Virus record (IMG/VR): IMGVR_UViG_3300047673_000114
Span: 1 to 30,457 of that record
Strand: one strand, 5' to 3'
Source: a virus
Length of the DNA stretch: 30,457 nucleotides
This document shows, piece by piece, positions 13,411 to 14,704 of the stretch. Numbering within the stretch: position 1 is the first letter of the stretch; the number at the start of each line of letters is the position of its first letter. The notes under the pieces are model-generated. The model ran no database searches. It saw nothing but the letters and a program-made list of their open reading frames with translations, and was not told where the DNA came from. A program made the translations under genes and the position numbers.

Positions 13411-13663
13411 GAGCCACACGGACCAGTTTGGCACCACCTACACGATCCCCGCAGAACCCGCAGTGCGAACCCCAGGAGCCCAATGGCGCCGTGGGTGTCC
13501 CGCTGTGGACGTGTGGTGGTCGAGGAACGGTGCCAAGGCCGACGAGACCCTGATCATCCGCCAGGAGTATGCGGAGCGAAGCACAGCAGACGTTTTGGAG
13601 CTGACGTTCGGGCAGGTTTACGACCTGATCGACGCACTCAACAAAGCAGTGGAGAGCAAATGA
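13400..13663 (+). CDS. Small hypothetical protein (87 aa)
   Basis: An 87-residue protein. The ATG at 13400 lies inside the end of the preceding gene and the stop overlaps the next ATG (ATGA). The second half (ETLIIRQEYAERSTADVLEL followed by TFGQVYDLIDALNKAVES) is a strand pair plus helix, similar in layout to the 68-residue protein at 3361-3567. No catalytic motif seen; function unknown. Confidence 0.7.
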   Translation: MPAESHTDQFGTTYTIPAEPAVRTPGAQWRRGCPAVDVWWSRNGAKADETLIIRQEYAERSTADVLELTFGQVYDLIDALNKAVESK

Positions 13664-13917
13664 CTGTTGAATGGAATGACAACGAGCCGATGTTTCCCGA
13701 CTTCCTGCCGCCGATCAAGAAGCCGGAGCCTGTGAAGCTGCCGCGCGCGGAAGCCGAGCGGCGCATCGAGGGCGTCCTTGAGGCCGCTGGTATCTCTCTG
13801 GACCTGTTCGCCTGCGAAGGTGGCACAGTGGAGCTGATAGCCACGTTCCCTGACGGTGCCACCTACGAATGCGACGGCGCCATCAACCTGCTGGCCGAAG
13901 GCTACACACGCCGATGA
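13660..13917 (+). CDS. Small acidic hypothetical protein (85 aa)
   Basis: An 85-residue protein starting MTVEWNDNEPMFPDFLPPIK. A Pro-rich N-terminus is followed by a helix (RAEAERRIEGVLEAAGISLD) and a beta-hairpin (GGTVELIATFPDGATYECDG). ATGA overlaps at both ends couple it to its neighbours. No family recognised. Confidence 0.7.
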   Translation: MTVEWNDNEPMFPDFLPPIKKPEPVKLPRAEAERRIEGVLEAAGISLDLFACEGGTVELIATFPDGATYECDGAINLLAEGYTRR

Positions 13918-14342
13918 CCACAATCGCCTACAGAGACGGCGAGCTGGCCACCGACAGCCGCATCACGGCCGGGGACATGATCGTCTCCGACAAGCGCACC
14001 AAGGTCCATCGCATGCGCGACGGGAGCCTCGTAGCGTGGGCCGGGAGCGTGCAGGACGCCGAGCTGCTCCTGCAGGCGATGCGCAAGACCGCCAAGCCCG
14101 CCGAGAAGCACCCGAAGCTGGAAGACATCTCAGCGCTGCACCTCCGCAGCGATGGGACCCTCTGGGAATACGAAGGTGAGGCCTGGGTCAAGCAAGACCC
14201 CGGCTACTACGCGACCGGCTCTGGGAGCCCGTACGCATTCGCTGCCATGGACGCAGGCGCATCCGCCAAGGACGCCGTGCGCATCGCAATCAAGCGTGAC
14301 GCCAACTCAGGCGGGCGCGTGCAATCACTGAGGCTCAAATGA
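13914..14342 (+). CDS. HslV-like Ntn-hydrolase (proteasome-type protease) family protein
   Basis: A 142-residue protein whose start MTTIAYRDGELATDSRIT matches HslV/proteasome beta subunits. Met removal would expose Thr2 as the N-terminal nucleophile. D14 corresponds to the proteasome Asp17, K30 in KRTKVHRM to Lys33 of HslV (KKVRRL), and WAGS (G44) to the FAGG loop. The later stretch GSGSPYAFAAMDAGASAKDA matches the conserved GSG-Y-A-A-A region. It is shorter than bacterial HslV (about 175). Members in phages are annotated as HslV-like; whether they cut peptides without the HslU ATPase is unknown. Coupled on both sides by ATGA overlaps. Confidence 0.82.
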   Translation: MTTIAYRDGELATDSRITAGDMIVSDKRTKVHRMRDGSLVAWAGSVQDAELLLQAMRKTAKPAEKHPKLEDISALHLRSDGTLWEYEGEAWVKQDPGYYATGSGSPYAFAAMDAGASAKDAVRIAIKRDANSGGRVQSLRLK

Positions 14343-14704
14343 AGCGACTACTGCTAGGCCCCGCGGTCCTCGCGTTGCCCCTGGCTCTCTTCGGCTGCAA
14401 CTGGGGCACCAAGGCCCCAGAGCTGCCTAAGGTGCCCGAGGTGATCAGAGAGATCCCGCTGGAGGACTTCGACCACTTCCCGCCCGTAGTGCCCCCGGCG
14501 CCCGTAGAGGCTCCCGTGGTGCGCCACAAGCCCGCCAAGACCCATCAACCGGTGAAGAAGCATGTACGACCCACGCCAGCACGACCATCACCTGTGGTCC
14601 CGGTGGAAACACCTGATGCTGGTGAGGCTCTTCCTCCACAGCACGGGGTCATCTGTATCTTCCCGTTCAACATGATCCCCAACTGCACTCCGGGGGTGCC
14701 GTAG
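14339..14704 (+). CDS. Proline-rich lipoprotein (121 aa)
   Basis: Residues 1-20 form a lipoprotein signal peptide with a lipobox ending LFGC (C20 lipidated). The mature protein is Pro- and Val-rich (PPVVPPAPVEAPVVR, KHVRPTPARPSPVVP), a stretched linker form, and ends with a short hydrophobic segment containing two Cys (GVICIFPFNMIPNC). It would be anchored in the outer membrane inner leaflet or the inner membrane. The Pro-rich lipoprotein form recalls outer-membrane spanins, but it lies on the strand opposite the lysis cassette and no inner-membrane partner is adjacent. The first 17 bases are identical to the start of the exonuclease gene. Confidence 0.78.
   Translation: MKRLLLGPAVLALPLALFGCNWGTKAPELPKVPEVIREIPLEDFDHFPPVVPPAPVEAPVVRHKPAKTHQPVKKHVRPTPARPSPVVPVETPDAGEALPPQHGVICIFPFNMIPNCTPGVP

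Follow-up and report, generated by a model that had tools for sequence, protein, structure and literature searches.

What can a proteasome-like hydrolase do for a phage that brings no recognizable unfoldase with it? The question is raised by a 142-residue protein encoded on the plus strand of a 30,457-base virus contig, which may be incomplete and which we analysed over its whole length (the window). A first-pass annotation had read this protein as a phage-encoded HslV/proteasome-like Ntn hydrolase and had offered three ways in which it could work: borrowing the HslU of the host, acting as a decoy subunit that poisons host HslUV, or cleaving small peptides alone.

The gene occupies positions 13914..14342 (+), including its TGA stop, and is supported by the open reading frame itself, by Pfam and PHROG profiles and by a structural model. 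It encodes 142 residues plus stop, beginning Met-Thr-Thr-Ile-Ala-Tyr-Arg-Asp-Gly. A mechanical list of open reading frames gives a longer form of 157 residues from an in-frame ATG at 13869. We prefer the start at 13914 because relatives share the Met-Thr-Thr beginning, because an in-frame stop lies at most 12 codons upstream in 27 of 80 IMG/VR copies, making a long N-terminal extension impossible in those copies, and because the preceding frame ends in a stop that shares bases with this ATG (ATGA). ATG stands at this position in 79 of the 80 IMG/VR copies, and ATA in the remaining one. With the preferred start there would be no propeptide, but another ATG stands upstream and in frame at 13869. 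G+C content is 85% at third and 49% at second codon positions, which fits a coding gene in G+C-rich DNA.

The overlapping upstream frame is small (13660..13917, +), and the ATGA formed by its TGA stop and the start of the hydrolase gene suggests translational coupling. The arrangement is repeated at the other end of the gene, where its stop overlaps the ATG of a 121-residue frame (14339..14704, +). The product of this downstream frame has a signal-like N-terminus with Leu-Phe-Gly-Cys and by eye resembles a proline-rich lipoprotein, perhaps an outer spanin. At E<=0.01 neither neighbor (the upstream frame queried from 13666) matched a family in Pfam or in PHROG. By our reading of the open reading frames, the plus strand of the contig also seems to encode a T7-type RNA polymerase, represented by its C-terminal part, together with a primase-helicase and a DNA polymerase, with the hydrolase gene downstream of these replication genes; the minus strand appears to carry portal and head genes. 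Searches confirmed a relative of the terminase large subunit and a glycosyl hydrolase 108 endolysin on the minus strand. The terminase of Roseobacter phage CRP-7 is a distant match of the window terminase.

The first-pass identification of the protein is borne out by family profiles. The window protein matches Pfam Proteasome (PF00227) at E 3.4e-9 and PHROG_1040, "peptidase HslV family", at E 7.4e-39. Candidate stretches in IMG/VR and in bacterial genomes were found by a word search, with MTTIAYRD among the words. A relative is encoded by 102 of the 107 IMG/VR candidates, from which the best 80 were kept, and by 8 of the 36 bacterial ones, the nearest being that of Bradyrhizobium sp. BR 10289 (85%). 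Our alignment, A1, joins the window protein to 68 of these 88 relatives (69 rows); near-identical copies, copies shorter than 135 residues, a 308-residue protein (L083) and the loci of named phages were left out. All 69 members, the window protein included, match PHROG_1040. Of the 50,697 phage records searched by tblastn, 119 contain a relative with E<=1e-3; the number rises to 377 when weak matches up to E<=10 are counted. Among the phages listed by this search, many already have the gene annotated, as HslV family peptidase or as proteasome beta.

Fuchs, Alva and Lupas (PMC8665760) named the PPH family in 2021; the part of their article available to us describes proteins of about 140 residues from tailed phages and their hosts in which H2 is missing. 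The window protein has 142 residues. Its predicted structure and alignment place a Thr1/Asp17/Lys33 triad on a beta core, and H2 is missing both from the model and, as a gap, from the alignment with Bradyrhizobium HslV. The setting is that of tailed phages and prophages: relatives lie in the phage records found by tblastn at E<=1e-3, and the window itself is a virus contig with a terminase relative. We are nearly certain that the window protein is a member of PPH. The first-pass annotation had treated such a protein as unusual, a view that finds no support: PPH is not novel, being a described family that is annotated in many phages. For its new families in general, the same article, in the portion available, gives no function-suggesting genomic context or AAA+ partner (PMC8665760). 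Our literature search, which missed most subscription journals and preprints, found no functional study, activity or substrate for a phage PPH.

A predicted structure without the Ntn sandwich would, on its own terms, have refuted the first-pass annotation; our model has the sandwich. The AlphaFold2 model of the window protein, built from 69 sequences, has a mean pLDDT of 94.0 and a pTM of 0.88. Its helices span residues 46-58, 105-113 and 118-128, and the first of them is followed by a strand at 72-77; the model has no second helix after the first, none at the C-terminus and none before residue 46. Residues 61-70, where H2 would lie, are its least confident block (mean pLDDT 75). The nearest solved relative differs with the method. 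VIA-align 2 places the E. coli HslV L88A mutant first (4g4e; Z 20.3, rmsd 1.9, 140 aligned); rows 1-10 of its list are all HslV, proteasome beta subunits with Z near 18 make up the greater part of what follows, and BPH is missing from the best 50. Foldseek instead gives BPH of Thiobacillus denitrificans in rows 1-3 (5ovt, 5ovs; E 8.1e-10 for the first), and the five top matches of the A1 sequence profile against PDB are proteasome beta-8 and beta-5.

The active-site residues that the first-pass annotation had named, an N-terminal Thr, an Asp, a Lys and a glycine loop, are conserved across A1. The nucleophile Thr2 (codon 13917..13919, +) is Thr in 69/69 rows, and superposition on 4g4e sets model residue 2 opposite HslV residue 1. 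The alignment with Bradyrhizobium HslV identifies Asp14 (13953..13955, +; 69/69 rows) with proteasome Asp17, and Lys30 (14001..14003, +; 68/69) with proteasome Lys33. Ser103 (14220..14222, +; 65/69), which we take to correspond to proteasome Ser129, sits in a Gly-Ser-Gly loop whose Gly102 and Gly104 are kept in 69/69 and 68/69 rows. Asp129 (14298..14300, +; 64/69), the presumed equivalent of proteasome Asp166, shares its column with a Cys in Bradyrhizobium HslV. Ser132 (14307..14309, +), presumably proteasome Ser169, is Ser or Thr in 67/69 rows, and Gly44, near the oxyanion-hole glycine, is kept in 60/69. Conservation of Thr2 and of the N-terminus in A1 is inflated, as its rows were gathered with N-terminal words; as a check, 12 named phages gathered by tblastn have Thr-Thr after the initiator codon in 11 cases and Met-Ser in one.

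In seven close relatives, omega lies between 0.09 and 0.23 across all 21 pairs (computed with our own Nei-Gojobori script), and the PPH gene is under purifying selection within this close clade. Judged from sequence, the protein, and by conservation its site, is maintained by selection. We consider it probable that the window protein is catalytically competent. Two copies deserve separate mention. The copy at L010:5001-5426 (87%) has ATA in place of ATG, retains Thr-Thr and is preceded just upstream by a ribosome-binding-like AAGGAGG; it may use ATA as an uncommon start codon, or the gene may have decayed. The copy of Rhizobium phage RHEph10 (L105:4001-4453) starts Met-Ser-Val rather than Met-Thr-Thr, so that Ser would serve as nucleophile, as in some BPH proteins.

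The near-invariance of the catalytic residues bears directly on the proposed decoy. A subunit that inserted itself into the HslV rings of the host, so poisoning HslUV, would profit from the HslV-like fold, and the Bradyrhizobium carrier does possess HslV. A decoy, however, has no need of the catalytic residues that the 69 rows of A1 preserve, and the window protein shares 24 of 109 residues with Bradyrhizobium HslV (BLASTP, E 0.026). Conserved catalysis disfavors an inert decoy, and we hold this part of the first-pass annotation to be very improbable.

How far, then, does the protein resemble an HslV that would work with HslU? Against the NCBIfam HslV models it reaches 28.6 bits where the cut-off is 157.75 (TIGR03692) and 29.1 bits where it is 137 (NF003964); by this equivalog measure it is not a true HslV. 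The available part of PMC6429459 describes HslV alone as only weakly active and in need of HslU, and locates the pocket for the HslU tail at Phe54, Phe57 and the residues at 79-80 (Ala79/Lys80). In our alignment, which addresses this pocket at the sequence level, Phe54 lies opposite Glu50 and Phe57 opposite Leu53, and the counterpart of the 79-80 stretch is missing. We infer that HslV residues 79-80 belong to H2. True HslVs themselves vary at the pocket, with Ile54 and Met57 in T. brucei (PMC6429459, in the part available). Given this variation Leu53 says little, and the argument is carried mainly by Glu50 and the missing 79-80 stretch. No residue predominates at the Glu50 position within A1 (Glu in 18/69), and the Leu53 position is Leu, Ile or Val in 43/69.

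The ATPase itself was sought in the phages. The first-pass annotation had seen no unfoldase in the window, and our searches agree: the 30,457-base record matches neither PF07724 (AAA_2, HslU/Clp-type) nor PF00004 (AAA). More widely, PF07724 matched none of 32 and none of a further 9 PPH-bearing records, some of them fragments and the window among the 9, in a search that was positive in all 14 control genomes. PF00004 matched 13 of 41 PPH-bearing records, 10 of them above the cut-off, the window not being among the 13; some PPH phages may have an ATPase partner of another kind.

A ring of phage subunits could still borrow the unfoldase of the host and redirect ATP-dependent degradation. Partners would be at hand: Bradyrhizobium sp. 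BR 10289, the closest bacterial carrier found, has both HslU (613.9 bits) and HslV, and PHROG_1040 matches 289 of 297 genomes of the host order, most of them, we take it, through HslV. The first ten VIA-align rows, all HslV, point the same way. The profile matches PPH and HslV alike, and the host-order search does not separate the two. Against borrowing stand the absence of the Ala79/Lys80 stretch and the replacement of both pocket phenylalanines. BPH offers a precedent: its HslU-contact residues are likewise not conserved, no partner ATPase is known and HslU was not pulled down, according to the part of PMC5777263 available. Loss of the H2 region and the altered pocket residue both count against the borrowing of host HslU, even though the Bradyrhizobium carrier has HslU and HslV, and we judge it unlikely.

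Of the three mechanisms earlier offered, acting alone is the best candidate. Independence from HslU is, in our estimation, rather likely for the window protein, and the fuller reading, a PPH family member that is a predicted active enzyme working without HslU, is on balance the likely one. In such a scheme, host methionine aminopeptidase would remove Met1 and expose Thr2 as the nucleophile, there being no propeptide to cleave. Subunits would then assemble into a ring or other oligomer, in which the active site would become functional. Without help from HslU, the enzyme could then cleave peptides, either unfolded or of a particular kind, or else act on one particular protein of the phage or the host. 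BPH again provides guidance: it bound epoxomicin and was inert on standard peptides and casein (PMC5777263, available part). An intact site therefore gives no guarantee of peptidase activity, and PPH, too, may plausibly accept few substrates. A bolder version makes PPH a compartmental protease or ligase that belongs to the virus, needs no ATPase, owes a new quaternary structure to the loss of H2 and acts during infection on one specific phage or host target; it seems to us doubtful.

A more specific role would be the maturation of capsids or virions, with the enzyme acting late on scaffold or other head proteins. A subset of relatives encourages this idea. In one locus, L025:1180-3693, a head-assembly gene lies directly upstream of PPH and a downstream frame groups with the L041 major head protein; in Vibrio phage BUCT006, PPH is flanked by a portal gene region on one side and a head morphogenesis gene on the other. 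When frames within 4 kb of PPH were clustered over 93 loci, a terminase-like cluster appeared in 14 of them, and downstream frames match head-tail adaptor (6/121) and major head protein families. In the window, by contrast, PPH follows replication genes on the plus strand, and the terminase and, by our reading, the head genes are on the minus strand. Other phages have PPH near lysis, recombination or replication, or sugar-nucleotide genes, and upstream neighbors include matches to head-maturation protease (2/123). A role in head maturation is very improbable on this evidence.

Conserved neighbors were also considered as a clue to PPH function in general, and no constant partner emerged, either from the 93-locus clustering or from scanning 123 frames upstream and 121 downstream against PHROG. 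These frames came from 65 of the 88 relatives, with ten neighbors scanned singly; the frame caller was crude and admitted shadow frames. Among the matches listed (the best 25 of 120 and 169 families), no single PHROG exceeds 6/121 downstream or 5/123 upstream frames, bearing in mind that a single function is divided among several PHROGs. The cluster of the lipoprotein-like frame at 14339..14704 recurs in 6 loci, all closely related to the window. The authors of PMC11841896, in the part available, placed an HslV family peptidase in a lysis module. PADLOC gave no useful match for the window protein (E 0.024). In Aeromonas phage 4L372D (L104:3432-4885), two tandem genes are annotated HslV family: one encodes 183 residues beginning Met-Thr-Cys from a TTG start, the other 294 residues beginning Met-Thr-Thr from a GTG start, with a long C-terminal extension. 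The pair is possibly a two-subunit enzyme. The longer protein recalls the RPC type, which the table in the available part of PMC8665760 lists without phages.

A specific transpeptidase or ligase activity in place of proteolysis is very unlikely. In its favor, the proteasome-like family includes a ligase, connectase (PMC8665760, available part), and BPH is inert on general substrates. Against it, the window protein lacks the helical S3/S4 insertion described in the same part of PMC8665760 as lying over the active site of connectase, and its model has no helix before residue 46.

The window copy is a further PPH sequence, with evidence both for selective maintenance of its active site and for an altered HslU pocket. 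Together, these two properties make activity without HslU the first reading to test. The finding is well supported but ordinary, and alone it alters little.

Set beside known systems, the window protein has relatives at several distances. With 20S proteasome beta subunits it shares the Arg-Asp-x-x-Ser-Gly-Gly end, and beta-8 and beta-5 head the A1-profile matches in PDB, but it is much shorter, lacks H2 and H5, and scores 45.1 bits against the archaeal proteasome beta model, where the cut-off is 224. The window record, possibly a fragment, holds no second Proteasome (PF00227) match such as an alpha partner. BPH, which leads the Foldseek list (5ovs/5ovt), resembles the window protein, as read from its preferred start, in having no propeptide and, in the available part of PMC5777263, no known partner unfoldase. 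Unlike the window protein, BPH is a bacterial gene product, is longer (183-201 residues in PDB chains), and includes H2 as well as a long acidic pore loop (PMC8665760, available part). HslV shares the core fold (Z 20.3) and the Thr/Asp/Lys triad, whereas its pocket Phe54 and H2 stretch are absent here, and Asp129 takes the place of a Cys in the Bradyrhizobium enzyme. PPH, compared through its published description rather than its alignment, differs from the window protein in none of the features tested: both are phage-borne proteins of about 140 residues with no H2, no AAA+ partner identified and, given the preferred start in the window, no propeptide, and both retain the catalytic Thr, Asp and Lys.
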